Assembly (NCBI GenBank): GCA_950295325.1
Contig: OX485809.1
Coordinates: 25,064,144-25,128,143, forward strand
Reading direction: 5' to 3'
Source of the DNA: Polytrichum commune
Lineage: Eukaryota; Streptophyta; Polytrichopsida; Polytrichales; Polytrichaceae
DNA: 64,000 nt
This document shows, piece after piece, positions 26,929 to 54,822 of this stretch (positions are counted from its first letter, which is position 1; each line of letters opens with the position of its first letter). The notes beneath the pieces were generated by a model that saw only the letters and a program-made list of their open reading frames with translations, had not been told where the DNA came from and did no database searches. The position numbers were made by a program, and so were the translations under genes.

Positions 26929-28459
26929 ACGAACGTGCGTTCGAAAACAACGCCATGACAAGCAAATACTACGTGGGAGTCACACACCAATGGACAACGG
27001 CATGCAATTGTGGTACATATTAACCGTGAAGGATTTTGGGTCGATTTGCTAATAAAACATGGGAAGTGTTGCCAACCAACAAAGGAGAGCATACGCACAT
27101 ATATTCACGAACGCGCGGACGAGAACATCAACCCAACAAACAATGAATTGTAAAAGGGATAAGCAACGTGCATTGCTCAGGAGCACCCAAAATGCACCTG
27201 CATCATTATCCACATGCAACAAGCATCGTAATTGAAGGGCATGTCTTTGACGGGTGTGTATCTAGGAACGACCAAACCCAAGGTAGAGCCTAAACTCAAG
27301 GGTGTATGTATACGAACGATCGTTCGTAAGTCCTGGCCGAAACATATGGGCGTATGCATACGAACGATCAATCATGTGTTCTAGCCCTAACCGTGTTTGT
27401 AAAAATGTTGACCCATCAGAAGAAACATCTATAGCGTAGTAGTAGGAGGCATGTGCATAAATGAACGGATGTTTCTGTATAATTGCAAAATAATATCAAT
27501 TGATATTTATGAATGCACGTTCGTGAATACCAGACCATCATATGTTCAGTTGGACATAACAGAGTCACGGGAGCGTAGGTGTCTTTGAGGGTTAGGAGGA
27601 AAATATACGAACGCACGTTCGTATATCATTGAACATTTTAGCGCCCACGACTACCTATAAGTAGGTCAACGTGGAGTATTATCGAATGCTCTACTTACGA
27701 ACGCACGTTCGTAAACCACTCGCATCACAACAACTTACGTGCGCCTGTATCTGGAAGGAAATATATACGAACGCACGTTCGTATATAATTGAACATTTTG
27801 TGCCTGTGACTACCTGTAAGTAAATCTACGCTGAGTATGTCTGATGCTCTACTTACGAATGCACGTTCGTAAACCACTCGCATCACAACAACTTACGTGA
27901 GCCTGTATCTGGAAGGAAATATATACGAACGCACGTTCGTATATAATTGAACATTTTGTGCCTGTGACTACCTGTAAGTAAATCTACGTTGAGTATGTCT
28001 AATGCTCTACTTACGAACGCGCGTTCGTAAACCACTCTCATCACAACAACTTACGTGCGCCTGTATCTGGAAGGAAATATATACGAACGCACGTTCGTAT
28101 ATAATTGAACATTTTGTGCCTGTGACTACCTGTAAGTAAATCTACGTTGAGTATGTCTAATGCTCTACTTACGAACGCGCGTTCGTAAACCACTCTCATC
28201 ACAACAACTTACGTGCGCCTGTATCTGGAAGGAAATATATACGAACGCACGTTCGTATATAATTGAACATTTTGTGCCTGTGACTACCTGTAAGTAAATC
28301 TACGTTGAGTATGTCTAATGCTCTACTTACGAACGCACGTTCGTAAACCACTCGCATCACATGTCTGAACCACTCGTCTATACCACTCGTCTAAACTACA
28401 TGTCTAAACCACTCGCATCACATGTCGCTACCAAGTCATCTTTACGAACGTGCGTTCGT
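26929..28459. repeat. Type-A palindromic iteron cluster upstream of element A transposase
   Basis: Sixteen-bp palindromes ACGAACG-NN-CGTTCGT start at 26929 (one mismatch), 27312, 27607, 27697, 27767, 27855 (one mismatch), 27925, 28013, 28083, 28171, 28241, 28329 and 28444. There are degenerate or half sites near 27104, 27359 and 27511. Most extend to TTACGAACG..CGTTCGTAA. The two central bases vary (CA, CG, TG, AT) while the 7-bp arms are nearly fixed, as expected of a dimer-binding site. The cluster begins about 145 bp upstream of the transposase start. Confidence 0.9.
27600..28345. repeat. 158-bp tandem repeat array carrying two iterons per unit
   Basis: The word CTGGAAGG recurs at 27751, 27909, 28067 and 28225, exactly 158 bp apart. 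Each unit has two type-A palindromes alternately 70 and 88 bp apart. About 4.7 units are present, the first (27600-27750) the most diverged. Near-identity of the later units points to recent tandem expansion. Confidence 0.93.
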
Positions 28460-29437
28460 AAAAGTCCGGTATTTGCGGCGGTATATGCGGGTATGTGCAA
28501 CCTATTGTGTACCTGGGAGGTATAGGGTGGGCACACAAGAAAATGGTTTGTGCTCGTTCCAGTCAGGTCTGTGGAGCGCACACTTGGTTGTGCCGCAGAA
28601 AAGAGCTCTGATGTGGGGGGAAGAGTTTTAAGTACCTCCCCCCTGATGGTTCAAAATCCCTTGGATGCTATTTAAAAAGTGGATTCCCGCCGCCTACTTT
28701 GACCTAACAATATGTCATTCCATCCATGCGGAATAAATAAATAGCATTATGTATGGAACATGTCTTGCATGCACGCAACATATTGTAAATATGTCAATCG
28801 GTCGCACACCTTAGTTGTCACCAAGGTCTCACGTGAATATATGTCTATATTTATATGTCTATATGAATTTCATATTGTATATTGTATTGTATTATATTAT
28901 ATATACACATATATATAATATTAGATTTATAATGTCTATATAGGTTTATGGTTAACATTGAATTTAAATGATTTGCAACTAAGGTGTGAAGTCCAAGTTA
29001 ATTGACGATTGATTATACCTAATAAAGTGATGAAGGGTTTAGGGTAATACATATTCACACACACAATGAGGTAAGAGTAGCTAAAAACATGTTGTGGAAG
29101 CCCCTAAAATTGTAGGTATCATATGATTCACATAAAAAAAATGCCCGTAATATGGTCACCAACTGCATGAATACCAATAAAAAGTCACTTAATCTATAAT
29201 GGTTTGTACTAGGTAAATTGAGGACATTTTGAAGTAATCATACCCAATATATGTAGGTAAGGTCTTCATTCAAATGTAACACTAGGTTTGAAAATAATGA
29301 ATTAAAATGGCATGATTGGAAATGATCAATCACTTTGGAACGGTGCATACGATAATGATAAGAATTGAAACCATGCCTACGTGAAGTCACACTTACAATT
29401 ATTAATATCATGTGTTTGACGTCCTATGAGAAATAAA

Positions 29438-30740
29438 ATTTCCTCCACCTTTTGTAAAGGTTTAGGATAGCGCAGGCTCGCCACAATATGAAATTGAGTC
29501 CTTTATCCAATAATTTTTTTTTAAGGAACCATTGAACACCTTGAAAGACATATTGTCCATGAAAAAATTATATTTTAAAACACCATATACACATGCTTGC
29601 GGGTGGATTTTTCATTTGAATCCACCCCCTACATTTGAGGCTCGCCAAATATCGGACCATATTATGAACTACAAGTTTAAATGCAATTGATCATTGGTGA
29701 AATTTAAAGTTGATGGCACTAGTATTCGTTTGTTAGTTCAAGTCGACAACTAATTAAATGACTTGACCTCCTAAGAAGGGTTGGTAAGATAAAAAGATGT
29801 AGGGTTTAGGGTTTAGGGTTTAGGGTTTGGGGTTTGGGGTTTGGGGTTAGTGTATATGGTTTGTGAAAGTTGTCTAATATGTGGTTTGCAGGCTTAGGGT
29901 TTAGATCGTTAGTGATACTTAGGACGGGTTTAGACTTGGAATCAAGGCTCAAAAATGGGTTGGGGTGAAAGAAATCGACGCCTCTCATTGGTAGAAAGGC
30001 TAGGATTTTCCTCTTCAAGTTTACACCATGAGTTGGGGCCAATCACAAATAAATTATTTTATTCATCATGACAATGGCTTCAAGCCTTGGAAAAGAGAGC
30101 TCCCAACATTGTGGACTCTTTCCCTCTTGTTGAGGCCATTGTTAGAGCTTTTATTCGCTTATAGTAGTTTATTCTTTGAGCATTGAGTAGGAGGGGAGAG
30201 ATTCTAAATTTATTATACTTTAATTATTATCCATAGAATAGTTCATGAGTACGTTGGAACCTCTCATAACCCTCTCATAATTGCAACCTCCAAATGGCCC
30301 CAACCCCACCTAAATAGGTTTACACATGAAAGCAATGAATGGAGTTAGGTTACTTTCTTATTAATGGCCTTTGGGGCCCATTTGCATGCCACATGGGACA
30401 TATTGGCCTTCGTTCACAATGGCCTTGGCCCCAAGTCTAAACATGCCCTTAGTGTACTATGCGTTCGTATTTAGAGTATCTAATACTAAATATCATATTA
30501 AGGGTGGGTCAAGCTAACACCTCATGAAATTAATGACATCGTATTGAAAAATGAATTTTCCCCCACCTCTTGAGGAGAATCTGATAGCCCCTCTCCACAA
30601 TTCAAAATGCGTCCTTTATGTATGTAAAATTTGTTTGAGGAACCATTGAACAACTTTAAGGATGTGTGGTTCATGAAAACTCTATTTTGCAAAACACCAT
30701 ACACACATTGGGGTGGATTCTTCATCGAAAACCTACTAAA
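29438..30740 (+). repeat. Diverged direct duplication (about 29438-29640 and 30553-30740)
   Basis: Both segments share, with many changes, the phrases GAGGAACCATTGAACA / AAGGAACCATTGAACA, AAAACACCATA.ACACA and GGGTGGATT.TTCAT. They are old direct copies of about 200 bp of unknown nature within the central region of element A. Confidence 0.6.
29799..29846 (+). repeat. Interstitial telomere-like tract (TTTAGGG then TTTGGGG)
   Basis: Four TTTAGGG-like units followed by three TTTGGGG units. TTTAGGG is the common plant telomere repeat. The minus-strand frame here (PKP/TLNPKP repeats) is an artefact of the repeat. Confidence 0.85.
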
Positions 30741-30893
30741 TGACATGCATTGTGTTGTACAAATTAACTGAACATACTTTTCTAAAATATGTTTACAAGG
30801 AATCCAACTGTAGAGGTATTAAGGGGATACGGAATGTAAAATTCATGTCCCCGAACTAAGCTCCCACCATTTCGTATTTCTTAATTCGTAAAC

Positions 30894-31012
30894 CCTCATC
30901 CCTCCCTATCCCCATTCCCCTCCCATCCATCCCCATCCCCATTCCCTCCCCATTCCCTCCCCTCCCCCATCCCCATCCCCATCCACATCCCCATCCCCTC
31001 CCCCATCCCAGC
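30894..31012. repeat. C-rich CCCCATCC simple repeat
   Basis: Irregular copies of CCCCATC and CCCCATTCCCTC over about 120 bp, just before a GC-richer stretch (31015-31150) that may be the promoter or first exon region of the large gene. Confidence 0.85.
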
Positions 31013-31600: not shown

Positions 31601-32678
31601 GTGAGTACAGGTTTCATTTTCAAAACACTTCTTTGCAATCTAAAATTGTTCTTTGTTGAATTCCATGTGTCATGTTTTATGCATTATGAGCTTTGTCATG
31701 TTTTGTATGAATTAGGACTTTCCCTTTCATTATGAATTCTTAATCACTGAATCTCAATGTTGTTGTCATTACATATTTCACTTTGTGTTTCATCATTCTG
31801 ATCAAGAGTTGCAGGCAAAAATCCAAACAATGTCAATAGCAACATTCATAAACCCATACATACGTATACGTATGTATACATATCCATATATATACGGAAA
31901 GCATTTATTATCATACACAGACGACCACATTTACGAACGATCGTTCGTAAATGTGGCGTTTATACATCTAATACACCAAGCCCTTTACTTTTACGAACGC
32001 ACGTTCGTAAAATACGCACTCACCTTCTACTTTTACAAACGTGCGTTCGTAAAATACCCACTCACCTTCTACCTTTACGAACGTGCGTTCGTAAAATACC
32101 CACTCACTTTCCACCTTTACGAACGTGCGTTCGTAAAATACCCACTCACCTTCTAATTTTCCGAACGTGCGTTCGTAAAATATGCGCTCACCTTCTACTT
32201 TTACGAACGTGCGTTCGTAATTGATTAAATAAGGAACATCTTGTATTTGCAAACGTCCGTTCGTGAACAAACACTGAATCACATCAATATCCTAGATTTA
32301 CGAACGATCGTTCGTAACCAGGGATCCAAACACACCCAAGATTTGCGAACGCGCGTTCGTAAATCTACACAAAGGCATGGACATAAATATGTGTACCCAA
32401 AAACTAATAAAAATGAGCCCAAAAAATGAAAATAAAAACGAACCCTACACCTTTTGATTACGCCATATGAACATCACAGCACTCAAATACGACCGCGCGT
32501 TCGTATTTATTGAAAATGAATAACACCTTGGAAATCAAACCAAATTTGCGAACGAACGTTCGTAAACAAGAACCAACAGATGTCTTGCCAATAATAAATA
32601 ATTTATTGACGACCTGCAAATGCCAGTAACGAACGCGCGTTCGTAAATGCAATTCTGAATGTGTATGTTACATTGCAG
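31601..32678 (+). other. Putative 5'-leader intron of element A large gene
   Basis: Donor AAT|GTGAGT at 31601. Acceptor TTGCAG ends at 32678, directly before the ATG. The same acceptor-ATG junction (TTGCAG|ATGGC) exists in element B, with donor AAAG|GTAAGT at 44642. Both inferred introns contain iteron clusters. Not proved without transcripts. Confidence 0.5.
31933..32644. repeat. Type-A iteron cluster before element A large gene
   Basis: Thirteen sites start at 31933, 31993, 32035, 32077, 32119, 32161, 32203, 32250, 32300, 32345, 32489, 32548 and 32629; a few have one or two mismatches. From 31993 to 32203 they recur every 42 bp or so with the linker ACTCACCTTCTA. The cluster ends 34 bp before the start codon. 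Confidence 0.9.
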
Positions 32679-33974
32679 ATGGCTAGACCAGTCAGGAGCG
32701 CAATCGAAATGTTCGCGGTTCAGTTGGATCGGCTTCCGGAGTCAGTGACAGATGACAATGGGAACGATAATTACGTCCCCAAAAATGACTTCATGGGGGA
32801 GTGGACGGCGCTCCCGGAGAAAATCGAGGGTGGATTGTTCGCCCTGAGATTCACATACGAGTTGGAGACAAGGCCAGACCAGCCGGAGCAGTGGGTGCAG
32901 ATGAAGACATGGGAGATAGAATCCATAGAGGCACAGGGTGATTTTGTTATCTTGGATTTGAAAAACAAAAAAGACCACATCAACCTCCTGCTGGACTTCA
33001 GGAGGCACCCTTTCTCCCATACATACGCACAAAATAATGTTGTAGAGGATGCCAAGCATTTCGACCTCGTGAACCTTTTCACGAAGTACAGCCTCAGCCA
33101 GCATTGGACAGCCAGGAAGTTGACTGCACTGGCCCTAAATATGTCAAAGTATAACAGTGTCGTCGTGGAGGCCAACAAGAAGAAGAAAAGTCCCAAAAAA
33201 CCTACTGCATCCGGAGCAGGAGGTTCTAGAAGTGCGCCGCGGCCAGTGCCTTCAGCTAGCAGATTGTCAGAGGGGCCAAGCAGACACTCCACGCCATCTA
33301 AAAGAACTCGGGACGATATGGAGAAGTCTGGTGTCACGGAGACAGCTGAGGTCAACTCGCCGCCTGTCATGCCGACCCCTTTGAAGAAGGGGGAAAACCC
33401 TGATGCGGCAAAGGCGACTCGTATCCTTCGCGACTTCAATAATTACTCGAAGGATTGTTGGCCCATGGGACGGCACTTCACCTTCAACGTGGACTGCTTC
33501 AAATGCGAGAAATCCCCCAACAAGTGGGTGGTGAGGTCACGTGAAAGCGGAGGTGTGAAGTGGTAAATCAACAACTTGATGAATAACGTGAAGTGGGATA
33601 GGCAAACTGTGTGCGTTATGCCAAAGGGTTTCACTTCCCGTCCCACGGAGAAAGATTGGGCAAGAATCCAGAACGGGGAGTTCTGGATTATTGATGGACA
33701 GCACAGCCTGGAGGCATCGCAGATCATCCTCAAGGATGATAACTTCCAGCATGAGCTGAAGGGGGACCTGCGCTACTAGAAGGCGTTCCTGGTGTGGTCA
33801 GACGACTGGGACAAACTCCGGAAAATTTCGACATTTTTAAATTCTGGGAATAAGATCAAAGCGTTTGAGGCATCACGGGCAGCAAACATAGTGGCTGCGA
33901 GAGACGTGTGGGTGGCACACGGGTGCCCACCAAAGGAGAGGGAGAATGCGAAAAACCAGTCTCCACAATGGAAG
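32679..33974 (+). pseudogene. Element A large gene, exon 1: ParB/DGQHR-like domain, two premature stops
   Basis: The exon of 432 codons runs from ATG at 32679 to a GTAAGT donor at 33975. It contains NGEFWIIDGQHSLEA with D339-G-Q-H. This resembles the DGQHR motif of DndB-like proteins and the ParB N-terminal superfamily, whose members bind or act on DNA or nucleotides; here Ser replaces the usual Arg. A basic Ser/Pro-rich linker (about residues 165-235) separates an N-terminal region of unknown function. In-frame TAA at 33564-33566 and TAG at 33777-33779 stand where the element B copy has Gln (CAA) and Trp (TGG). Both are transitions, so this copy is dead. Domain assignment is by motif only. 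Confidence 0.7.
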
Positions 33975-33982
33975 GTAAGTTT

Positions 33983-34055
33983 ACGAACGAGCGTTCGTAA
34001 TTCTCAGGTTCCTTTAGAACATTCCTGATCATTTTATTTACGAACGTGCGTTCGT
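33983..34055. repeat. Two type-A iterons in intron 1 of element A large gene
   Basis: Sites at 33983-33998 and 34040-34055 inside the 116-bp intron 33975-34090 (GTAAGT...TAATGCAG). Element B intron 1 also holds one site, of type B (42164-42179). Confidence 0.9.
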
Positions 34056-34090
34056 ATTTGATTGACCGATGACATTCCTTTCTAATGCAG

Positions 34091-35416
34091 GTGTTTTGCA
34101 ATGCGATGGTGGACAAATTCTCTTCCATCGACATGAAGTCCACTTCAACGAAGTCAGTGCTCGAGCTGAAGGGTGAGCTCCGGCTTATTTGTTGCAACAG
34201 AGACACTTGGGATTTGTGGACCCAATTTTTTGATGCTCACAGTGCGGGGGATCTCGTCAACCCCGACATTGAAGAAAAATATAATCAGGAGAAGACTGGG
34301 GAAGCGCCTCCGCTGCTGAGGGAATTTTTTAGGCCGCTTCAGGGGTTGACGGAGTCGGAATTGCAGAGATGTGCAGTTCATGCTCTTGGGAACACCGTCG
34401 GGAGAACAATCCCCTACCTGAAGAATTTTTTGAAGAGGCCAAAGCATAGGCCCGGAACGTACTCCATCAAGGAGTGGTGCGAACATCGCAAGTTGAAGAC
34501 CAAGGCAATGAGGGAGTTGGGCGCACTAGTCCCGGAGTACAAACTCTTCCAGGCCGACGGGGACATCAACTGGGCTGGATGGAAGGAGTTCAAGGTCGGG
34601 TATAACATCAACGGCTCTTCCATGCGTAGGCTAGTTAAAGAACACGCCTCCGTCTTGAAGCTGAAGGGGAACAAGCGGACCAAGAAAGCAGAGACAAATC
34701 CCCAGGAGGTGGAGTTGTATATAAAGTTTTTGGAGAGGAAGCGGAAGGCCACATTCGAGGGAGTGGCCAGGTTTTGTTTGGTAACCACCGGGCTGGAGAG
34801 GACCACTTTTTCTAAGTGGGACGGCACCATCAGCAGGGCCGAGGTGAGGGAGGACCGCAGGGGTTGCCCATTTGCCCTGATTGATTTCAGGGGGATCCTA
34901 GGAGGTGCGAGGCAAGGGGCAAAGGATTTTCCCTTCTACAACCCTTTCATGGCAAAGTTTCAAGACTACAGATCGCTTGAAATGAGGGAGCCTCACGTAT
35001 GGCTTTGGATAGTGGAACAGGAGAAGCTATCCATTGTCACTGAGCTGTACGAAAATACCATCAAATTTGAATACAACATCTACCACAGCACCTACGTGCC
35101 CGCAAAAACGGAAGGGATCGTGGCCATCAACGAGGCCAGGGGCAACAAGCAGGTGGGAGCTGTCAGCTTGATCTTCTTAACGTACAATGCTCTCAGAAAT
35201 GGGAGAGCGCCTGTGAAGGCAAACAGTACTTTCAAGAAGATATACAGCATCCCTCACCCCCCTCCCAAGGAACTGTTGCAGGAGACACTGTACACGGTTT
35301 TCCCCGCGTTGGAGCTCAGGTTGGAGTTCTACGTGTCAGTGTTGCAGAGTTTGGCAATCAATGGAGAGACTGTCTACAACATCTTTGGAGGCAGCAAGTT
35401 CATGTACGCGGCCATG
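34091..35416 (+). pseudogene. Element A large gene, exon 2 (uncharacterised domain)
   Basis: The exon of 442 codons is fully open, bounded by acceptor TAATGCAG and donor ATG|GTAAGC, phase 0 at both sides. The matching element B exon (42068-40750) shares FSSIDMK, LKGEL, RDDPRGCPFA-like and EPHVWLWIVEQE blocks and the end KFMYAA. I do not recognise a named domain. The protein is rich in Lys/Arg (for example LERKRKATF), suggesting nucleic-acid contact, but this is inference. The exon belongs to a gene that already has premature stops in exon 1. Confidence 0.65.
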
Positions 35417-35438
35417 GTAAGCTGTCATTCTTAGATTT

Positions 35439-35552
35439 ACGAACGCTCGTTCGTAATTGTCATTGATTCAAATGTTATAATAGTTGTGGAATTTTTCCCT
35501 TTGCGTTGATCTGGCCTTGTCTCAATGTTGATGTTTACGAACGCACGTTCGT
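35439..35552. repeat. Two type-A iterons in intron 2 of element A large gene
   Basis: Sites at 35439-35454 and 35537-35552 inside intron 35417-35584 (GTAAGC...GGTACAG). Intron 2 of element B has three sites (40591, 40637, 40684). Confidence 0.9.
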
Positions 35553-35584
35553 ATATGCTGACATGTTTGGAGACGTTGGTACAG

Positions 35585-36690
35585 ATGCTGGGGTTGGTCG
35601 TCAATAACTACGTTGACGCCCAAGACGAGGATGAATACCAGGTCCACAGGGTGAAAGCGTCCACAATGGACCTCGATGACATGTGTGTCCCCAGGGAGGA
35701 CTTCAGCATGCCCGTCGACGAAGGCATGCCGGGCTTGGAGACATACGAGGACGAGCCTGCCCCCTCCGTGGACGTGGATGTGGACGCCATCTTGCAGTCG
35801 TTCAACATCACTCCTTTACGGATGTTGGCGCCAGCGGGTCACCCGTCTGACCCCCAAGGGACACCGGGGGGCTATACAGGATCCTCGGCTGGGACAACCC
35901 AGGATGTCCTCCCCGCTAGAGTGTCGGGTGCGGAACCCTTCGGCACACCTGGCGGTTGTTCGACGTCAGTGTCTCCCAGGCCCGTCGTGGTTCCGAGGAT
36001 GGAGACCCTCGACCTCCTCGACCAACGCTCGCGTCCATCCTTGGACCACTTCCGGAACACGAGGAGGAGGATGAAGAAGACGCCATACGTGGAGTTGCCG
36101 GAGGGAGCAATCATCGAGGTGTCCGACGAGGACGAAGGGGACATGGACATCATGGCGGAGCTGGGGGTGGATTACGACAAGAACAAGCGTGTGAAGGAGG
36201 AGGCGTTGACGGTTGCCGAGCTGAATGCCAAGCTAGAGCAAAAAATGAAGGAGGAAATGGTGGCTGCGGTAGAGGAGAGTGCAAGAAATATGGCCCGCAT
36301 GCAGGAGGCGCTGCGGGAGTCCGCAGCAAAGACGGACGCCATATTTGAGATGCTCAGAAATATGCAGAGCTTCTCGGCGCCAGCACAACAACCTTACCCC
36401 TTCCCCGGAGGATACCCCTCCCATACCCCCCCTCCAGGCCTGTTCCCCGGAGGACCTTCGCACCCACCAGCACCACACCCAACGCCAGCTGGGAGTCCTC
36501 CGCCCCTTCAATTGACTGCCACCCCCTTCAACTCGGACGATGCGATAAGGGCTGCCATACGCGAGGACGAAGATTTACGAACGCGCGTTTGTGAATCTTC
36601 AGGTCCGGCAGTCCTAACCCCTCCCCCTCCAAGGGTAGGACTGGCCTCAGTCACTGCCACCGCCTCTTTGACAGTCGTCCCGAGGGTAGT
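35585..36690 (+). pseudogene. Element A large gene, exon 3 (5' part), split by element B
   Basis: Starts MLGLVVNNYVDAQDEDEYQVHR after acceptor GGTACAG, matching MLGLQVNSFVQDSDYDD in element B. An acidic, Pro-rich region follows, then PYVELPEGAIIEVSDEDEGDMD, and a coiled coil rich in Glu/Lys/Met (about 36190-36360: LNAKLEQKMKEEM...). A Pro/Gly-rich stretch comes next. The frame is cut at 36690 by element B and continues in frame at 54023 once B and one TAGT copy are removed. An iteron with one mismatch lies in the exon (36577-36592) and is read as DLRTRVCESS. Confidence 0.8.
36687..36690. repeat. Target duplication TAGT of element B (left)
   Basis: TAGT directly before the left end of B, matched by TAGT at 54019-54022. 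Confidence 0.85.
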
Positions 36691-36740
36691 AACACTATAT
36701 TCGTTATTTGGAGACTTTTTGTTAATTTTGAGACTATTTA
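36691..36740 (+). repeat. Left terminal inverted repeat of element B (phosphatase side)
   Basis: Begins AACACTATATTCGTTATTTG, then GAGACTTTTT and a GAGACTATTTAAGGA stretch. The same extended sequence, slightly diverged, forms the right end of element A (57157-57206), so the two ends of the family can be told apart. Confidence 0.88.
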
Positions 36741-37000
36741 AGGACGTGGCTTTCACATTTATAGGAATGAAAACACTAAAAATATGCTATGTTCCCAATT
36801 TTGGAAACAAATAAGAGACTCAAATGCATGGAACTACACATTAACAATAAGAAAATGGGATATATGAAAACATTTGCATATGGAAAATCAATATCATATT
36901 TATTGAATAGGGGTTGAAGTACAAAATGCAAGTGGAATATCCAATATTAGGCGAAAGTCCTAGAAACATAATTCCACAACTACATGTATGTTAATATAGC

Positions 37001-37897: not shown

Positions 37898-37989
37898 CTA
37901 AGACACAAAAATACATTACAAAGATAAGGGGAGAAATGTTAGATATTTACATGGAGAGTCCAAGTACAAACCCAAAATCATCAAAGTTT

Positions 37990-38757: not shown

Positions 38758-39050
38758 CTGTGATGGAACATTCTATCTAGGTAAATGGTACTACTCAAGA
38801 AAACCAATTGACAAGCATGGATAAACTCAACACAAATTATAAGGCCAAAAATAATCCGAACCATCCAGTTGAAAAATTGGTATTAATGTAATTGGTGATA
38901 TACATTTGGTGAATAATATACATTGTCGCAAAAAATATCTGTTGAAGTTAATGGAATCTATGCTAACAAAATTGTATCCACCCGCCGGGCGAAGTCGAGG
39001 ATTGAACTCGATAATATACACACGCCACGAAGGAGGCAGACAAGGAAGTT

Positions 39051-39066
39051 TTGGACGCGCGTCCGT
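39051..39066. repeat. Type-B iteron in intron 3 of element B large gene
   Basis: TTGGACGCGCGTCCGT, two mismatches to the consensus, inside intron 39097-38758. Element A intron 3 carries four type-A sites. Confidence 0.8.
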
Positions 39067-39097
39067 AACGTGGGAGGCATGCTCAAAGGTTGATTAC

Positions 39098-40513: not shown

Positions 40514-40590
40514 CTGGACCATAACAAGAAAATTAGATAAGAACAATAGTGGTGATTGCATATAAATGAGGCTAGATGTCAACACGTTAT

Positions 40591-42163: not shown

Positions 42164-42179
42164 ACGGACGCACGTCCGT
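42164..42179. repeat. Type-B iteron in intron 1 of element B large gene
   Basis: ACGGACGCACGTCCGT inside intron 42200-42069. Confidence 0.9.
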
Positions 42180-42200
42180 AAATCTATTTGAGTAACATAC

Positions 42201-44642: not shown

Positions 44643-45096
44643 CTTTCTAGAGTGTTTGCTCCTAAACCACAACTAGCTGCTCCTGCTGCAGCTAATACCA
44701 ACTGCAAATGAACAATAAAATTGAGGTCAGAAACCTCTAGTAATTCAATGTGCACATGCATGATTCAACATTGAGAACTACTCAAAAAAGTTGCTCATAA
44801 ATCAGATTCATGCAACACAAGTGAAAGGAAACTATTGATTTGTATGCAAAAAATATAATGAACTACATGGTGAAGCTACAACTGAAACCCTAATGAGCAA
44901 CATCTGAAACACTAATTACCCTTGCAACAACTGAGATCAACAACTGAAAACAACCTAATGAGCAGTAGCAAGCAACAATGAGCATCCTAATGATCTAATG
45001 AGCAGCAAGCAAGCAAGCAGCAAGCAAAACTTACTAATGAGCTAATGAGCTAATAAGCAAATGAGCAGCAAACAAGGAGAACTTACTCTAGCTCTG

Positions 45097-45110
45097 ACGC
45101 GCGTCAGCAA
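45097..45110. repeat. Short type-B-like palindrome in leader region
   Basis: TGACGCGCGTCA with flanking GC/GC, equal to the inner part of the type-B site (GACGCGCGTC). It lies in the presumed leader of the element B large gene. Confidence 0.5.
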
Positions 45111-45119
45111 TTGACCAAT

Positions 45120-45575
45120 AAGAATGAGTTTTGCATTGTGAGGAAAGAGAAGCAAGACCAGCAAGGGAAGCAAGAGAAGAGAGAGAAGAAAGTGAAGATA
45201 AGGGTAAGAAGCAAGAGAAACAATAGAAGAAAGTGAAGAGAAGCAAAAGAAGCAAAAGAAGATGAGCAGATGAGCAAGAGAAGATGAGAAGTTGAGCAAG
45301 AGAAGATGAGCAAGAGAAGAAGAGTAGATGAGCAAGAGAAGATGAGCAAGAGCAGATGAGCAAGAGAAGATGAGCAAATGAGCAAGAGAAGCAAGAGCAG
45401 ATGAGCAAGAGAAACAAGAGAAACAAGAGAAACAAGATAAACAAGAGTTGCAAGAGAAGGAAGCAAAAGCACGAAGAGGAGGGCAAAAGGGAGCTGGTGT
45501 ACTTTGAAACCCTATAACCCTAAAGCAAGAGAAGCAAGAGCAACAGTAGAAGGAACGGAAGGAAGAGATGATAGA
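45120..45575. repeat. Purine-rich GAGCAAGAGAAGAT repeat
   Basis: Imperfect tandem GAGCAAGAGAAGAT and AAGCAAGAG words. The Leu/Ser-rich minus-strand frames are composition artefacts. Probably in the transcribed leader of the large gene. Confidence 0.85.
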
Positions 45576-47290
45576 GAAGGAAGGAAAAGCACGAAGAGCG
45601 AGGGCGAAAGGGTGCTGGAGTACTTGGAACCCTAAAACAATGGCGTGCCTCCACGTGTCCCTACCCCAAACGTCGCGCCCAATCGCCGGCCTATACCCTT
45701 ACGTGGCATCACCCTACTGGTCTATATTTGGTATTGAAATAGGGGTTTAATTTATACTTAGTTTGGTGATTTTATTATCATATTATGTCATAATAACATC
45801 TTATGTTTATGCTAAGGCAAGTTAAAAGTCACACTAAATGTCACTCTAAATATAAAATGAGCCATCTCGTTGCCTCTTCTCTTCACTTTTGATAATGAGT
45901 GAAATATTCATACGAGCTCTAGAAAGTATTCATTATTTTAGGAAATTATATTAGGGTGTGAGGTTGAGTAAATTATTATGTCATTGTCAACAATTAAATG
46001 ACATCAATAATAATAATAATATCATTTTGGAACTCCAAACAATGAGAGAAACTAACTACAATTTCTAGTGTGGCCTCTATGGAGAGTGGGGGAGCACCTT
46101 TCATTAAAACCTAGAATCACGTGCGTTCACTGCATACTCTAAAAACCCCCTAATATATACAAGTGATTTTTTGTGAAATGAAGTAATACACATACAATTG
46201 CAACAATAAATATACAAGCAACAATATGTATACACAAAAAAACATCCATTCATATATATTAGTCATTACTCGGGGGGGCAGTGTGTTAAAAAAATAAGGA
46301 TATAGGGGGGTATTACTTTCAATTCTCTTATTTTTTTTCACATGCTATCATTATATAAATTTCTACTTTGGGTTAATAGAAAAATGGCTTGCATTACTTA
46401 TAATTCCAAATTACCAATTATTCCATACCCTATACTACTTTAAAGATGTCCAGTGCCATTTTTGATACCCTATATTACTCTTAAGTCCATTTATAATTTT
46501 TTGCCCCCATGTTTTTAAAATACCCTATCATTTGTTTGCACGTATATTGCTACTCCAACCAATGACTGCCCCCCCCCCCCCGAGAGTCATTAACATAAGT
46601 ATACAAATGCAATTATTGTCTCGAAGTCTACCATGGAATGATCAATAAGATCATATGTCCACTTGTTGTTAGCCCCTTTTGATACCAACATAAACCAATC
46701 TCCACGTTTGATGGACGGTCCATCAAGTCAAATGGATCCCTATACTCCACCCAACGATTACCAAACTTCCTCCGCATCCTATAAACTCTCCCAACAAACC
46801 AAACCTTATGAAAACTTATCCAATATGAACACTTATGATATATAGTATAGTAACAATACCATACAAGTACAATTATTCTATACTTTTTAAAGGCCTTCCA
46901 TATATGTACGTAACTATAAATTATAACATGTATACCATATGTATATGCAATACGGCAAGGTCCAAATCAATACCCCTCCTGTGCACTCACGTATAACTCG
47001 TACATGTTTAGTACAGTGCACCCCCCGAGCTATGGAGGGGACTCTATATTTCGAGAATAGTAATAATATTCAATAAAAGGATGTCTTGTTGATTAACTTC
47101 AGTATAAGAATTCTTTTTCTTCTCAAAGGTGGGATTCAAATGCAATTGGGGCAATATACCAATTGGCCACAAATTCTCATGAAACTTTGCCAAGAAATAC
47201 TTGTGAATCCCTCAATTATCGCAATAAGTTGTGAAACGCAATTAACAAAACCGAAACATCGAGATATGGGGAGAATTCATATGCTTGTAA

Positions 47291-47455
47291 TACCTTAAAC
47301 AACATTACGGATTAATTCAATCCCTCCACACATAGGTCTAAGCTTGTATTAAAACAAAATGCATGGGTATGTGTTGAATGTACATCCCTCTTGTACATTA
47401 AACAACCTTTCGGATCCATCCAATCCTTCCACACATAGGCCTCAGCTTGTATTAT
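47291..47455 (+). repeat. Direct duplication of about 61 bp (47291-47351 and 47394-47455)
   Basis: Both copies contain TTAAACAAC, CCACACATAGG and AGCTTGTATTA at the same spacing, with about one change in five bases. Nature unknown. Confidence 0.7.
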
Positions 47456-47800
47456 CGCTTATAAGTAGTAGCAAACTTGTTTATATTTGGAGTTTTCTTT
47501 CGGTGGTGAGTTGTGTTTAGGACTCGATTATAGAATACCAATATACGATCTTCAAAACCTTTCATCAAAAGTATATGTTTAAAGCAAATGGTTTAAAGCC
47601 AAAGAAAGATTTAAAAAAATGAAAGGTAAGGTTACCCCTAAATTTGCTTCACATTTGAAATGTTTATGGTTTTATTTTACAAAATTTAAAGGTAGTCATA
47701 TAGTTTTGAATTACTTCCACTTAAGGCTACACATGTATTGGGAGTTATTCAGTTAACCATGCGTACCGTATGTCGTTGTGTTTGTTCAGGGGTGGGCGGT

Positions 47801-47862
47801 TATAGGGTATAGGGTATAGGGTATAGGGTATAGTGTTTAGGGTTTAGGGTTTAGGATTTAGG
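47801..47862 (+). repeat. Interstitial telomere-like tract (TATAGGG then TTTAGGG)
   Basis: About five TATAGGG units followed by three to four TTTAGGG-like units. It lies in the central region of element B, as a similar tract does in element A, but its flanks do not match those of A. Confidence 0.8.
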
Positions 47863-49080
47863 GTACCACGTATGAACTAATGAGAGTATCCCCCTTCTGT
47901 CACCAACTTAAAATTGCTTGCCTTTATAATATTTGGATACCCTACCCTCCCCTTCTCTCCATTATGGTTTGTTGGGCTCATAATGTTACTTAGAACAACA
48001 ACTGCTATTGTTTGAGTCAATATTGTAGATAATGTACATGGGGTACTAAAAATTGTTTTTTGTCTCACGTATAGTACATTAAGAATGCTAGTATTATTTT
48101 TTTTGAAATAAATGTTGATGTATTGAAGGGGGCCCTAAAGTTAAGAGAGGAAATTGAGAATATTGATTTTAAAGCAACCCATAGTGCCTATGACAATAGA
48201 TGTGCTATTTTCATGGCATCTAGGCGCTCAAAGTTTGTGTACGTATTAGTATAATTATGTATAGGTGTGTAAAAGTGGGTAAATTAAACGGGTTGGATGG
48301 TAGGGTGGTGGCAAATGTAATTACTAGTTTAAATGCTAGATGAGAGGAGATAACATGATATTGGAGTGAATATCATTACATCGTATGCAAAACAATAAAA
48401 TAGATGCTAGTTTAATTTTGAATGACACGTATTTTTATACTCCATGTACTATTGTTGTTGTTGTGGTTGATGTTTCACACGACACTATAATTTTCTGTCT
48501 CCTAGTTCTACAATGACCTCTCAATATTAGGTACTTCAATATTATAAACCACCCCTCAACAATGTTCAATGCTCATATATTATTAGCCTATTTTCTTTGT
48601 TGTCCACCATAAATACGTAGATGCCTTTTGCTTTGTCATTATGTGGACTCATCGTCTATGCATGTTGTCCACTATGAATACACATTCCATTGTAAGGCTG
48701 GCACACGGAATGTAGTAATGTTAGGTTTTTATTTATAGGACGTAGATGGTGGCTAGTATCCTATGTTGGAAAACGGATCCAAGGGAAACGATCAGTACTT
48801 AAGGGGACACCCCTCCACCAAGGGACTCTTTTTGCATCTCAGATGTGGGTTGCGCTGCTTGGACCCTTGTAGTGTTCTGGATGTTTATTTCGTGCAGGTA
48901 CAGATCCTATTGCAATGGACCTTTTATACCCTAAACACTAAATTCCAAGCCATAAACCCATTAGTGGAGCCAATTTTATGTGGATTGCACTGTCTGGATC
49001 CTTATAGTGATTGATTTTTGTTTATGGCAAGTATCGTTCCTGGTGAAATGGTCCTATTATGGCGCCGCAAATCACGGAGG

Positions 49081-49480
49081 TTTACGGACGTGCGTCCGTA
49101 AACCTTAAACCTCTTGCTTGGTTGGATATCTATTTCTGTGAGAATTGCACTTGAGCTATTTCATGTACATTGAGGTTTACGGACGCGCGTCCGTAAACCT
49201 TAAACCTCTTGCTTGATTGGATATGTATTTTTGTGAGAATTATACTTGAGTTATTTCATTTACATTGAGGTTTACGGACGCGCGTCCGTAAACCTTAAAC
49301 CTCTTGCTTGATTGGATATCTATTGTTGTGAGAATTATACTTCAGCTATTTCATGTACATTAAGGTTTACGGACGCGCGTCTGTAAACCTTTAACCTCTT
49401 GCTTGATTGGATATCTATTGCAGTGAGAATTATACTTGACCTATTTCATCTACATTGAGGTTTACGGACGCGCGTCCGTA
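49081..49480. repeat. 95-bp tandem repeat with one type-B iteron per unit
   Basis: TTTACGGACG starts at 49081, 49176, 49271, 49366 and 49461, exactly 95 bp apart. The linker carries AAACCTCTTGCTTGATTGGATATCTA. It occupies the same relative place (upstream of the transposase) as the 158-bp array of element A but has a different linker and period. Confidence 0.93.
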
Positions 49481-50120
49481 AACTTTTGCACCTTTTTGTT
49501 CCATTGTTCGGTATTGCACCTGAGCTGACATCATGACCACTTGCCATGTATAGTATACCAACGAGACTGTATTGTCATGAAAATTTTCTGACTCACGTCC
49601 AGTAACCTAAACCTATTTGTGCTAGTAATGAGGTACAGAGAGGTTTACGGACGCGCATCCGTAAACCTGCAAACCTTTGGTTCCATACTTTTCACTATGT
49701 GCCATGTAGAATATTACATTGAGACTGTACGGTCAATGGAGGTATAAGATCCCTAAACCCTAAGCTTACATCACCCTATGTGTCATAGTATAATATTTTG
49801 ACATTCATAATACACAGTAGGAACCTGGCACCTGGACATCTTGGTTTCCTAAACCTCTGTGTGTCTTGCACAACACTGACTTTTGACATTCGGATGTTTG
49901 CGGACGCACGTCCGTATACCTATGTTGTATAGTTTGCGAAAACATTTGCGCATGATATTGACCTCTTTGACCACGAAGAGATTTACGGGTGCGCGCCCAT
50001 AAAACTGTCATGTTTTTGTTGTCTGGACCTTTCCGCCGACTATGAACAAATAAAGACATATGTATGCGCGTGCTTGCACTGATAATGTTGTTACATGGAG
50101 ATATACGTACGCGCGTTCGT
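49084..50120. repeat. Type-B iteron cluster upstream of element B transposase
   Basis: Sites start at 49084, 49179, 49274, 49369 (one mismatch), 49464, 49647 (one mismatch), 49900 and 49985 (degenerate). The one at 50105 is a hybrid (ACGTACGCGCGTTCGT) with one type-A arm. The last site is 145 bp before the start codon, like the first site in element A. Confidence 0.9.
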
Positions 50121-50264
50121 ATACCAATGTGTCTTTGTTTCCAGGCCATGAAATCCACTATTGTTGACATTGTGTTTCATTGACAATAAGCGTTAGGACT
50201 ATCCATGACATTTATTGAATGGGATATTTTGACATACTCTTCATGTGGGTCACTTGTAGTGGCC

Positions 50265-53200
50265 ATGGATTCCAACGTCCGAGATAGTGCATTCGAGTTC
50301 TCTTCGGAAGCGTCAAGCTATGCTAGCGAATTTGAAGGTGTTATGGAACATGAAACTACAATTGGTGTCGCCAATGCAGAGGATGATTTCATACCAACAT
50401 GTGAGGGTTATTCGCGGGAACAATGGATTGATCTTGATGTTGTCATAGTCAATGGATACGGCGTCCCCGTGGCCAATGGTGTTTGTAGGAACTCAAATCC
50501 TATGGACTGTATTGATGCAAATCCCCTTGGGGAGGAAGATGTTGGGGTGTGCATTTTGAACTCCTTACATCCATTGGAAGTACCTCCTGGTTGGAGATTC
50601 TCTCTTCGTCGATGGCCGTTGCGAAGTGTTCTTCACGATGGTGTCAGCTTGTGGAATCATGCACGTCGTTTTGAGGAAATACAAAAGACTTCGTTCGCCA
50701 CAATGCGTCCTAGACAAGGTCGGCGTAAATATGATTCCGTTCGCGTGCCCCGTGAACCCACGCAACGTCGTCGAGATCTAACATTGGGAGACACATCTAT
50801 TAGGTCCGTAGCAACAAAGGATTGTTGTGCAAAAATGTGTTGCCAACTATTTCCCCGTGACAAAATCAAATCTTTGAGACAAGAGATGTGGCTTGCGGAC
50901 TTTCGGATGCGATCTGCAAAGAAACTTGAAGTCCATCGCAACATGCACTTTGATGCCGAAGGTCGTAAGGTTGTGACCTTGGAAAATATAGAGGTATGCT
51001 GCACGGCATGGTACATTATACATGCAGTTTCAAAGGCAGATTTTTATAGGTTCCGGAACTACTCGCTGCAAGGACGGCGTTCTCGGTTCCATGGCAACTC
51101 TGGTACAAAGAAGCCCAGGGAGGCAACACTCCAAGCAGCTGCAACACTATCAACCATCATTATGCCATTAGCAGATGCGATGCCACACAAAACACGGACT
51201 CTGCCGTCGGGGGAAAAGGTTGTCCAGATGGTTTTGCCTACAGGGACAAAATGGAAGAACATACTTATGGATGTTAATGAGGTTGGCGAAAAGGCTGGAT
51301 GTGGGCCGATTTCGTTGTCAAAATTGAGTGTGATCAAGAATCAACAATTTGCAGAGTACATTACGAAGAGGCCTGGGGATAAGTTTGCCAGGTGTTCTGC
51401 TTGTGAAAAATACAAGGGCCTTCGAGATGCACATCCCATAGGGACTGAGTCGCACAATAGACATCAACGGAAATACATTGAGCATGTCAACAACCAAGAG
51501 GCACACCGTCAAGACTACTACAAGAATCGCGCATTATCGATAATGAGGCCGAGTGAGGTTTTGACAATCATTCATGACAAAATGGACCATGCGAAGACTG
51601 CGTGCCCTTGTTATGCACGGAAAATAAAGGCTACAGATGGATATTTCAAGCTCCCAATATCTGTCACAGGTTCGTTGGTTTTCACATTTTTTTTGCGAAC
51701 CCACATACTCATCGTTAAGAGTTACGGATGTACATCCGTAAGTGTTTGTTCATTTTCTTGGCCTGCTTGCGGAAAAATTGAATTTCCTTATTATAAATGA
51801 TATTGGAATGTACTTCTCATTTGTATGTCTTAATTCAGGTATGATCGCACATGGCCATGTGGACGTCAAGTATGCACATTATGGCTTGGATTTCTATCCA
51901 GGCGACGCCAATCATACCGTAGGGTCTTTTGCAAAACTTCTACGAGATCTTGAGAGTCCGCCAACATCATCCTCTCGCGCTCTTTTTGTTGGATGTGGAA
52001 CAACACCGATTTATGAGGCTGTGCTAGAGGGGAAAGAAGTATGTCTATCGTCACTGCAAGAACCGCCTGAACAAACCGTTCTTGCTAAACCTTTGCCTCC
52101 AACTCTACATGTGCAACTGGACAATTGTGCCAAAGACAACAAATGTCGATACGTGTTTTGTTTTTGGTCATTGCTCGTAGCCAAGGGCATTTTCAAAGAA
52201 GTGTTTGTGTCTTTTTTGATGGTTGGCCACACGCATGATGACATTGACGCTTCATTTGGACGTTGGAGTATGAAGTTGCACGAGGAGGATTTTCCGACGA
52301 TTCCTCTTCTCATGAAATCATACATGGATTTGGATAATGTGCCAGTCATCCCGCATTTGATTGAAGAAGTGCCCGATTTCAAAGCGTTTATCGAACCATT
52401 CATTCTTAAGGGAGGTGACCGTTTAGTGGGCCATACCAAGGCTCAACAATTCCGATTCTATATGCGTGATGATGGTTTGCCGGCCATGCAATTCAAAGTT
52501 TTGTGCACTTCCCCGGATTGGGGTCCAGAGGAAGGGATACTCGTATGGCGCCAAAACGAAGAAGGCAAATGTATGCTACCTGATGGGGAGCCGAAGCCTT
52601 GCAAACCCAACCCCATGAGGAATGGACCAGAAATCATCAAAGGTATATCCGGATTCATCCAATATTGGAAAGAATTGTGCGAGGAAGACATCACAAGGCG
52701 TGTTCGGGATACCCACGAACCATTGATTACGTACTGGGATCGCATTCGCTCAGCATTGCTAGCACCCGATGTCGAAACACATTCATGTTTGACACAAGGT
52801 TTTTGGCCACAAAGCCGAGTGACAATCGTGGAATCTGAGGCCATGTTCTTCGACAATGGGGACATCCGTGAAGAGTTCGCAGCGGACGACCATTATGTTG
52901 GCCCAGCTCGTAATCGTCCGGCTCCATCATTTCGTGTGGCTGTTGATTGTTACGAAGGGTATATGATCCTCGTACGTCCTGGAGATGAGGAGCACCCTAA
53001 ACCGATTTGGTTGGTAAAAGCATTGTCATCACCAAATTTTGTTCCAACTAGCCCAAATTTTCATCAAATTGAGGTGGAATATTGCCGTCCCAGCACCAAA
53101 GATCAAAATGTGCTCCGCACATATTTAGGGTGGGACACCAAAAAAGGTTTCAAATGGACAATGGACTCAGCATACGAACCAATATGGATAAACACAGATA

Positions 53201-53361
53201 CCATACTTTGTGCTTGGAAACCACGCAAAGGTTCCAAATCAGAGACAATGACCATCCCCCAAAAACATATAGATTTTGCCAAAGACAACTTGGCACGTAT
53301 TGCTGCTGCAGAAAACGATGTTGAGAATGGAAATGAAGCTGAAGATGAAGATGGAGAATGA
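50265..53361 (+). CDS. Element B putative DDE transposase (DUF7869-like), intact
   Basis: Exon 1 is 50265-51669 and exon 2 51839-53361, with a phase-1 GT-AG intron of 169 bp; 975 residues without a stop. The N-terminal 60 residues are acidic and variable. Cys pairs (CCAKMCCQLF; FARCSACEKYKG) suggest metal-binding modules. Acidic blocks in order: HDKMDHAKTACP (D438, D441), LDNCAKDNKCRYVF (D563) and GHTHDDIDASFG (D602, D603, D605). This spacing fits an RNase-H-fold DDE enzyme of the DUF7869 type, many members of which have no assigned function. The C-terminal 250 residues are closely shared with element A, down to KPRKGSK-ETMTIPQKHID. It is the only fully open transposase here and the best candidate for an active source. 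Mobility is inferred. Confidence 0.82.
51724..51739. repeat. Variant iteron in transposase intron of element B
   Basis: ACGGATGTACATCCGT, a perfect palindrome equal to the type-B site with both inner CG changed to TG/CA, inside intron 51670-51838. The element A intron shows no clear site. Confidence 0.75.
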
Positions 53362-53980
53362 TATTGACGTAGGGTTGGACCACAATTATTTGAAATGTGT
53401 CTTGGTTTTTCATGAAATATATGACATTGGGGTCGAATACTATATTAGACACATTTTATAGCAATTTTATAGATTACAATTATATATCATGATTGTATTG
53501 ATTTACGGATGTGGAATCCAACTTCACATGCGCTATCAAATGTTTTTTATATGTTTGTGTTTACGGATGTGGAGTCCAAACTATATAATTATATTGCAGA
53601 TGCTAATTTGCAATTTCTTATACACACTGTCAAATTATTTTAATATTGTTGCGTTTGGGATGTGCCGTTCAATTCACCCACAATTGGCTAAGATGTTATG
53701 TTTGGGATACGCATCCAAGAGTCCCTAGATATAAAATCAGATGGCTATTTATAGATTCATTAATTTTGTTCAATACAAAATCAAAAATACAAAATAATTG
53801 TGAATTTGTGACATTGGAATATTGTGTTGGCGTAGTTTTGATTATCCCCCAAATAATTACTATATTTAGAAACATATATATTCATCACATATGGATCTTT
53901 CGAACATTATGTTGCCATTGTTCCCCATGTTCCCTACGTTCACAATATTCGCATCCGAAACTACGGGTCCAATTTATTTT
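53362..53980. other. Subterminal region of element B, transposase side
   Basis: Non-coding. It carries words such as TTTACGGATGTGGA.TCCAA (near 53503 and 53560), GTTTGGGATGTGCCG (about 53653) and TTTGGGATACGCATCCA (about 53701), similar to the subterminal palindromes of element A (14955-15011). Short frames here are not supported. Confidence 0.45.
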
Positions 53981-54018
53981 GAGACTTTCCAAAGTCTCCA
54001 ATTAACGAATATAGTGTT
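53981..54018 (-). repeat. Right terminal inverted repeat of element B (transposase side)
   Basis: Contains the palindrome GAGACTTTCCAAAGTCTC (53981-53998) and ends CGAATATAGTGTT. Its reverse complement matches the left end of element A almost base for base over about 45 bp. Confidence 0.9.
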
Positions 54019-54022
54019 TAGT
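54019..54022. repeat. Target duplication TAGT of element B (right)
   Basis: Matches 36687-36690. Confidence 0.85.
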
Positions 54023-54377
54023 GCATAGGCAGGGCGATGAATCTGCGCAACACACTGACATGGTCATTGTGGAGGAAACGCAGGGGAGCCCCAATGACGC
54101 GGCAGCTGTCCAAGGAATGGACGTTGAGAGCCCTGACCTGGAACGGCATCCATCCGCGGAGATGGAGGATGTCCGCATGGACACTCTCGACCTGGGCGGA
54201 GATGACGACGACGACGCGGATCACATTGTGCAGACCCAGGCGTCACAGTCGGAGCGTGCCACAGACGCCATGGAGACAGAGGCGGCTGGCCCAATGGGGA
54301 TTACGAACGCGCGTTCGTTAATCGAAGAGGAGGGAACTGCTCGGTCCAGCGCCGCTGCCCCTCCCCCCGATGACGAG
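54023..54377 (+). pseudogene. Element A large gene, exon 3 (3' part after element B)
   Basis: Continues in the frame of 35585-36690 after removal of element B with one TAGT copy, giving an exon of 487 codons. It ends at GAG|GTAACT. The translation is acidic (DLGGDDDDDADHIVQTQAS) like the tail of the element B exon. A type-A iteron lies in frame at 54303-54318, read as TNARSLIEE. The donor and phase equal those of element B exon 3. Confidence 0.8.
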
Positions 54378-54408
54378 GTAACTCTCCTCTGAGAATACCA
54401 CTCATTTA

Positions 54409-54822
54409 ACGAACGCGCGTTCGTAACCACTAACCCATGCGCGTTGTGTTCTTGGCGGTTCCTGTCCATCAGCATCACGAGGCGTGCGAGGACCCTTCTC
54501 TACGTGGACCCTTAGCCCGATAAATTTTGTAGAACACGGCATGTATTTGCCATAGGAAACTGTGAAAAATTATCACGTGAGACAATTGTAAATATTCACC
54601 GAATTAATATATGAGCAGATGATCTCTGCGTCACATCTCCCAAACTTATTGTATCGTATCGCATCTTGTATTATGTATGTTCATGCGCATCATTACACTT
54701 TCACGCCCACTTTCACCCTCCTTCACGAACGAGCGTTCGTACATGTGCTTCTATCCGCGCTCACGAACGAGCGTTCGTAAATGATGCGCCACCCCAGCCT
54801 TCATTCACGAACGCTCGTTCGC
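54409..54822. repeat. Four type-A iterons in intron 3 of element A large gene
   Basis: Sites at 54409, 54725, 54763 and 54807 (central bases CG, AG, AG, CT; the last has one mismatch) inside intron 54378-54938. Confidence 0.9.

Follow-up and report, generated by a model that had tools for sequence, protein, structure and literature searches.

Two sister DNA transposons, A and B, carry palindromes that are specific to each element, and we consider it probable (at roughly two chances in three) that these are operator-like sites read by a dimer of the ParB-like (DGQH) protein that each element encodes, with element-specific expression or anti-silencing as the likely purpose. The original prediction, that the arms of the palindromes co-evolve with an element-encoded DNA-binding protein, was supported, having survived tests of sites outside the elements and of lineage.

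Nested elements and their palindromes

The window, the whole 64-kb stretch of DNA that was analysed, contained element A (14708-57206, plus strand; TIR AACACTATATTCG..., TSD CTAG at 14704-14707 and 57207-57210), with two insertions, an LTR retrotransposon (15636-24165) and the 17.3-kb element B (36691-54018, minus strand; TSD TAGT at 36687-36690 and 54019-54022), which sits within A, oppositely oriented, and has an identical TIR. TTTAGGG-like repeats point to a land-plant host. These limits correct the element boundaries proposed originally. Because B is nested inside A, A-type sites at 54303-54807 were assigned to A; the iteron spacing without interruption was seen in a C1 copy of element A.

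The element A transposase gene (DUF7869, PF25273 E 1.9e-40; 24130-26803, minus strand) resumes with its C-terminal part at 15120-15632, past the LTR insert. A type-A iteron array with a 158-bp tandem unit (26929-28459) separates the transposase gene from the divergently oriented DGQH gene, and a second set with a 42-bp unit (31933-32644) lies upstream of the A DGQH gene (32679-36690, plus strand), which is cut by B and continues after 54018. The exons of this gene (ends approximate) are exon 1 at ~32679-33974, with two in-frame stops in the window copy, exon 2 to ~35416 and exon 3 from ~35585; intron 1 holds type-A iterons at 33983 and 34040 (33983-34055) and intron 2 holds those at 35439 and 35537 (35439-35552). 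Further type-A iterons (54303-54822) precede the A NIF-like phosphatase gene region (54933-56787, plus strand; 60.9% identity to its B counterpart).

Element B comprises a NIF-like phosphatase gene region (37001-38769, minus strand; PF03031 E 4.3e-13 for 37993-38769), a DGQH gene (39083-43490, minus strand) and a DUF7869 transposase gene (E 4.5e-40; 50205-53361, plus strand). The window copy of its DGQH gene has one in-frame stop and one frameshift, with exon 1 at ~42201-43490, exon 2 at ~40750-42068 and exon 3 from ~40513 (ends approximate). Type-B iterons were found in intron 2 (40591-40699, where a third site, 40637, is equidistant from both types), in intron 1 (42164-42179, the place orthologous to 33983 in A), upstream of the DGQH gene in a 135-bp tandem unit (43673-44275), and upstream of the transposase gene in a 95-bp tandem unit (49084-50120), the final one of which (50105) is off-type.

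Across the window there were 27 exact type-A sites (ACGAACG-NN-CGTTCGT), 12 exact type-B sites (ACGGACG-NN-CGTCCGT) and 41 matches to the generic pattern ACGNACGNNCGTNCGT, two of which (50105 and 56067) were neither A nor B. Element A held 26 exact A sites, and element B held 12 exact B sites and one A site. When up to two mismatches were allowed, the window total rose to 59, with 37 sites closer to type A and one tie in element A, and 18 closer to type B, two closer to type A and one tie in element B; the earlier estimates of about 30 A and about 20 B sites were therefore fair. No A or B site was found in the window outside both elements, even at three mismatches, and ACGRACGNNCGTYCGT had no match in 100 simulated first-order Markov windows. 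The palindromes described originally are real, and constant flanks lengthen their half-sites to TTTACGAACG in A and GTTTACGGACG in B.

The exceptions listed earlier fared unevenly. The site just upstream of the B DGQH ATG (43549-43564) is indeed a perfect, single A-type site within B. Among the three supposed hybrids, 56067 is a true A/B hybrid, 50105 (ACGTACG..CGTTCGT) is not, and near 27104 the sole match, at 27107, is a two-mismatch match to the generic pattern.

Lineage specificity across the genome

Genome-wide, we counted 5602 A sites (4 for the control) and 1394 B sites (1 for the control), the control being the reversed pattern, which differs in CpG content from the real one. Mixed or other sites numbered 324, relative to ~2450 mixed sites expected under random arm pairing. 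In the window scan the sites were not common outside the elements, and the genome-wide excess over the control agrees with this. We then took 13 of 131 A-like and 20 of 104 B-like matches, picked to spread over identity (some on C1 were already known from pattern listings). All 129 exact sites in the A-like loci were type A, and 131 of the 151 in the B-like loci were type B (14 mixed, 6 type A); arm type therefore follows element lineage closely, although the sites of one lineage are copies and not independent events. Lineage counts are lower bounds, as the DGQH-query searches scored the best 97-131 of 677-1100 candidates. One locus, L034, held 33 exact A sites with no match to any element gene. 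Of 21 B-like loci, 15 had an A-type site ahead of the DGQH ATG, at a distance of 72-78 bp from the reference ATG position; the site was exact in 7 of them and carried a single mismatch in 8.

The intron position of the sites is common to different lineages. The first site of intron 1 was exact A in 14 of 14 A-like introns; in the 18 readable B-like introns (of 21, with 3 lacking a readable donor) it was exact B in 12, had one mismatch in 4 and was degenerate in 2. At this place the C locus had an exact C site and the D locus a one-mismatch D site. B-like intron 2 contained further hybrid sites. Pairwise identity of the intron-1 arms was 0.94 among the 18 readable B introns and 0.99 among the 14 A introns, relative to 0.60 (B) and 0.53 (A) for the remaining intron bases. 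These values bear on the idea of neutral tandem arrays kept uniform by slippage and gene conversion. Many sites do sit within tandem units of 42, 95, 135 and 158 bp, as that idea would have it, but at isolated intron sites outside the arrays the arms are near-invariant while the introns have diverged and the central NN varies, and the 7-NN-7 architecture recurs across seven lineages; we regard neutral origin as very improbable.

Five more lineages (C-G) carry other 7-NN-7 palindromes, for example TGGGTCG (10055 copies, control 1); genome counts for two of the five were 10055 and 971. The single-base symmetric arm change recurs beyond the A/B pair, in E/F and E/G. Lineage C is represented by one element (L039, L043, L046), F by one locus, E by two and G by four, with the E, F and G loci covered as ~4-kb pieces. 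The D-lineage DGQH gene was found in L045. Promoter sites of the G lineage are often asymmetric, and the arms of B and D differ at just 2 bases despite ~21% identity of the ParB-like domain. No recurrent palindromes were seen in L037 or L044. TGAGGCA palindromes beside the distant L038 transposase (311 genome-wide, control 0) were rejected as an eighth lineage, since the neighbouring ORF has no evident relation to DGQH proteins and the sister locus L036 has no such palindromes in the stretch examined.

Binding by host transcription factors, with spelling that tracks lineage by descent only, would fit the promoter location of the sites and the inheritance of types within clades. However, it would demand seven 7-NN-7 specificities from a single host, with each type missing, or nearly so, from the other lineages surveyed, and symmetric replacement at orthologous positions requires coordinated change; we consider a host reader very unlikely.

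Candidate readers encoded by the elements

Between A and B, identity was 77/84% for the transposase, 61% for NIF and 44/53/33% for the DGQH exons; between A and C, it was 59/78%, 45% and (DGQH exons 1 and 2) 34/37%. The transposase and terminal repeats are the least divergent parts, and DGQH is the fastest-diverging gene. Across seven lineages, arm distance correlated with ParB-like-domain identity (Spearman -0.51, exact Mantel p 0.016) in a test with n = 7 that covered the ParB-like domain only, left out L052 (no donor found), used a short piece of L053 and took palindrome types found by inspection. Of the two proteins suggested as possible partners in co-divergence with the arms, the pattern favours the ParB-like DGQH protein over the transposase.

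The transposase is also element-encoded and has sites upstream of its gene, and so the palindromes might be DUF7869 binding sites used in transposition. Against this, the outermost 1 kb at each of the four ends of A and B contains no site, even when two mismatches are allowed; A, B and C have a common TIR start, yet 3-4 of 7 arm bases are different in the C iteron; and the C-terminal part of the C transposase is 77-79% identical to those of A and B. Its N-terminal part, only 59-66% identical, is still a candidate reader, but overall we consider binding by the transposase unlikely.

The location of the sites in promoters and introns, not at element ends, makes a role in expression upkeep or anti-silencing likely for the ParB-like protein. 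One DGQH subunit would contact each ~10-bp half-site of the palindrome, with the free 2-bp centre between them, so that a shift in DGQH specificity would alter the two half-sites in concert across almost all sites of its element. The lineage would thereby acquire a private code, by which each transposon could tell its own DNA from that of close cousins. Brought to the whole element, the DGQH protein might keep its genes expressed or shield it from silencing, acting in cis and also on non-autonomous copies that retain sites. We infer DGQH binding, dimerisation, and activation or anti-silencing, and the data separate activation from repression in neither direction.

Bacterial DndB and KorB are repressors, and with this precedent the ParB-like protein might bind the sites for repression or copy-number control instead. 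The sites flank the DGQH gene itself, and autoregulation might be the role of the A-type site found ahead of the ATG in B-like loci. The elements are, however, present in high copy number, and genome protein searches gave sets of stop-free copies with equal scores, which suggests that expression has not been held down, and the sites extend into introns and promoters as VANC targets do in the account cited (PMC5735166), which leaves repression as the less probable mode of action.

The system offers a natural series of homologous proteins, each with palindromes built to a single plan and distinguished from the others by one or a few symmetric bases, at thousands of sites in one genome. How protein-DNA specificity evolves, and how sister transposons come to tell self from non-self, thereby becomes directly testable.

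Known systems and the predicted DGQH fold

VANC serves the VANDAL elements of Arabidopsis as an anti-silencing system, much as proposed here for the DGQH protein. VANDAL elements are MuDR-like. The present elements have a DUF7869 transposase, not a MuDR-type one with VANA/VANB/VANC, and a Pfam search with their DGQH exons gave nothing below E 0.01. In both systems lineage-private short motifs cluster in non-coding parts including introns, but the VANC motifs (YAGTATTAY, AGTTGTCC/AC) lack palindromic symmetry, the VANC passages cited make no mention of a ParB-like protein, and binding and hypomethylation are demonstrated for VANC (PMC5735166). The algal transposon Sola1-1_Ec32 encodes a 1104-aa accessory protein of ParB-like and DNA-methyltransferase type (PMC12477816). 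In the portion of that report drawn on here, the likeness extends to a large protein with a ParB-like domain, to its coding by a giant DNA transposon and to an accessory gene opposite in direction to the transposase, and tentatively to an N4C/N6A methyltransferase-like half; the present protein differs in having no methyltransferase catalytic motif, and the transposase in being DUF7869 (PMC12477816). No target sequence is named for the algal proteins in that portion, in contrast to the lineage-specific palindromic code found here, which suggests a kind of target for such accessory proteins, whose role there is just proposed (PMC12477816). We noticed no earlier account of such an iteron code among the matches listed in the open-licence PMC literature.

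The present sites are internal (promoters, introns) with none closer than 1 kb to an end, unlike the subterminal short repeats bound by an element protein in En/Spm (TnpA) and Ac. Bacterial ParB-parS, Noc and KorB share the ParB/Srx fold predicted here, and parS is likewise a 16-20-bp site with two-fold symmetry. The differences are the eukaryotic transposon setting, the dozens of sites per element and the replaced nucleotide-motif arginine; no matching HTH or C-terminal ParB domain was identified in the DGQH protein. A more speculative possibility, less likely than not, is that a eukaryotic transposon superfamily has ParB-parS-like self-recognition, in which a protein combining a ParB fold with a dead methyltransferase half would load at lineage-specific palindromes, spread along its own element and shield it from silencing. 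On that reading, symmetric base switches would diversify the palindromes, so that many orthogonal codes would share a genome, and non-autonomous copies would persist through retention of their palindromic address.

The ParB/Srx fold of the DGQH domain is predicted from structural models whose overall confidence was low (mean pLDDT 58 and 55). Structure comparison gave a best Z of 8.5 (rmsd 3.0, 95 residues), with ParB, Noc or PadC in every one of the top eight rows, and the first four Foldseek rows were ParB (best E 3.5e-3, none at E ≤ 0.001). A phage ParB family profile was matched weakly by 5 of 12 DGQH rows (best E 0.019), and an unnamed phage family was matched by one row at E 0.0032, better than any row's ParB match. 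Sequence searches of the protein against Pfam and the PDB gave no significant match, and a search of NCBIfam gave nothing useful. All 12 rows have [DN]GQH followed by S or T; the canonical ParB nucleotide motif is GERR/GxHR with arginine, and the arginine of the ParB/Srx motif is replaced in every row.

Spliced DGQH models reach 1382 aa. Exon 2 gave weak fold matches, many to methyltransferases (best E 0.19; best Z 4.9), chance-like rows only in the PDB sequence search and, for the spliced region, no match in profile searches. An intact N4C/N6A methyltransferase has the catalytic motif (D/N/S)PP(Y/F/W), and none of the five spliced proteins searched has it (one of them, L021, has a frameshift further on in exon 2). 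At its probable place these proteins read DFRxIPG or something very near it, and the F and G loci inspected read DFRFIPG. A methyltransferase-like half without DPPY is kept as a tentative reading, because it draws on weak fold matches and a motif reading with no profile match. A YEATS match to exon 1 (E 0.018-0.022) was dropped, being under the curated cut-off and present in just 2 of 12 rows, and the PDB sequence search with exon 1 returned Cas1 (E 0.18) and a cellulase (E 1.1) alone. The N-terminal part of exon 1, in the predicted model, resembles PH/PTB/FERM domains (Z ~5-6).

Two nested elements and their palindromes

An exact scan of the window gave 27 type A (ACGAACG-NN-CGTTCGT) and 12 type B (ACGGACG-NN-CGTCCGT) sites, which bore out the original prediction of two palindrome types in two transposons. 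The generic pattern, which also admits mixed arms, had 41 exact sites; allowing ≤2 mismatches, 59 were found, all within elements A and B, two sister DUF7869 transposons. Self-comparison and end sequences showed that B (36691-54018; 4-bp TSD TAGT) is nested inside A (14708-57206; 4-bp TSD CTAG) in the opposite orientation, and thus A-type sites past 54018 belong to A. Their common TIR was AACACTATATTCG...GGAGACTTT. Each element encoded a DUF7869 transposase and a NIF-like phosphatase, and also carried a gene of several exons that encodes a DGQHS motif (the DGQH gene). The A transposase gene was split by a young LTR retrotransposon (15636-24165; end repeats of 1516 bases, 99.9% identical), and the DGQH copies in the window were damaged (stops in A; one stop and one frameshift in B), while exon 1 was open in many copies elsewhere in the genome. 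The NIF/CTD-phosphatase-like gene (37993-38769 and 54933-55703) was present in lineages A, B, C and D. The palindromes (iterons) were placed in promoters and introns of element genes, and none was found within 1 kb of the four ends of A and B in the window (≤2 mismatches).

Across 408 Mb, the generic pattern occurred 7321 times (reversed-pattern control 139), type A 5602 times (control 4) and type B 1394 times (control 1). Only one generic site had both arms pyrimidine and 324 had the remaining combinations, compared to ~2450 mixed sites expected under random arm pairing, as computed from the genome counts. These counts demonstrate symmetry and enrichment but not independent events, because the sites are copies of one another.

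Palindrome type and element lineage

Of the DGQH loci listed, 20 of the 104 B-like and 13 of the 131 A-like ones were retrieved. Exact generic sites were type A in 129/129 cases at the A-like loci, while the 151 at B-like loci comprised 131 type B, 6 type A and 14 mixed sites. In a tree of 19 exon-1 proteins, the B group had support of 99/100 and the A group, drawn open, 82/99; three label changes accounted for four palindrome types, although the C and D branches were long and their joining was unsure. Further lineages, reached via a transposase-family search and a search with the D protein, had arms TGGGTCG (C; 10055 copies genome-wide, control 1), ACGGGTG (D; 971 copies, control 3), CCACTCG (E), TCACTCG (F) and CCTCTCG (G), all with the same 7-NN-7 architecture. 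Foreign exact sites numbered zero among types A-D, save the A sites in B-like loci, and none was found in seven E-G loci. Like A and B, E differed from F and from G by a single symmetric base. Over the seven lineages, arm distance fell as identity of the ParB-like domain rose (Spearman -0.51, exact Mantel p 0.016), with the B/D pair as an exception. Promoter sites of lineage G (L047, L048, L051) were often asymmetric (CCTCGCG with CGAGAGG), while its intron sites were mostly symmetric. At another locus (L038:5537-6160), TGAGGCA-NN-TGCCTCA palindromes (311 genome-wide, control 0) adjoined a distant DUF7869 transposase and are possibly an eighth code; no relation to DGQH proteins was found for the neighbouring ORF.

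Orthologous intron sites supported conservation of the arms. An iteron lay just within the donor of DGQH intron 1, being exact A at offset 9 in 14/14 A-like loci; at offset 21-22 in B-like loci (18 of 21 introns readable) there were 12 exact B sites, 4 with one mismatch and 2 degenerate. The C locus had an exact C site and the D locus a D site with one mismatch. Over all readable introns (18 B, 14 A), pairwise identity was 0.94 (B) and 0.99 (A) for the arms, 0.58 and 0.80 for the centre, and 0.60 and 0.53 for intron 1 outside the site; the arms are conserved, and the B centre is as free as the remaining intron bases. Intron 2 (readable in 15/21 B-like and 14/14 A-like loci) also held iterons, with hybrids more frequent in B-like loci; in the B-like locus L009 it contained a tandem sub-variant near ACGGCCG-NN-CGTCCGT with a 48-bp period.

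A perfect A-type site inside B (43549) was immediately upstream of the DGQH start codon. Such a site, exact in 7 and with one mismatch in 8, was near the start in 15/21 B-like loci; five others had a B-type site at -63/-64 in its place. Among sites with 1-2 mismatches, C>T/G>A at CpG made up 52/82 changes in A and 47/143 in B, a sequence pattern that decay under methylation would produce, evident in A but weaker in B.

A candidate reader of the palindromes

Between A and B, identity was 77/84% for the transposase, 61% for NIF and 44/53/33% for the DGQH exons; between A and C, it was 59% (N-part) and 78% (C-part), 45%, and 34/37% (exons 1 and 2), respectively. The TIR start was common to A, B and C. 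Thus, divergence is smallest for the transposase and its probable target, whereas the iterons shift together with the DGQH protein. AlphaFold models were of modest confidence overall (mean pLDDT 58 and 55), with pLDDT about 80 for the DGQH domain. For this domain, ParB chains filled Foldseek rows 1-4, and the eight highest VIA rows were ParB/Noc/PadC, with Z reaching 8.5. The ParB arginine position was S/T in 12/12 rows, and for one row an unnamed phage family scored better than the ParB family. The second half of the protein, with weak methyltransferase matches and an FGG(S/T)K motif, is at best methyltransferase-like; the DPPY motif was absent from 5/5 spliced proteins examined. Algal transposons encoding ParB-like and methyltransferase proteins, as described in PMC12477816, fit this picture.

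The best reading of these data and models is a putative self-addressed ParB-like regulator, whereby the element's own protein would be directed to the palindromes of its own element in promoters and introns. Several observations count against it: the low confidence of the models, the S/T at the ParB arginine position, the better score of a phage family for one row, the A-type site near the DGQH start of B-like loci, and departures from a strict code, seen as hybrids at B-like loci and as asymmetric sites in lineage G. The regulator would probably act as an activator or anti-silencer, resembling VANC, the anti-silencing protein of Arabidopsis VANDAL transposons (PMC5735166), in logic and not in protein; that the putative regulator instead represses is a less probable alternative. 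At L034:648-6097, 33 exact A-type sites were found together with inverted-repeat-like ends and no element-gene match, and this locus is an apparent non-autonomous element.
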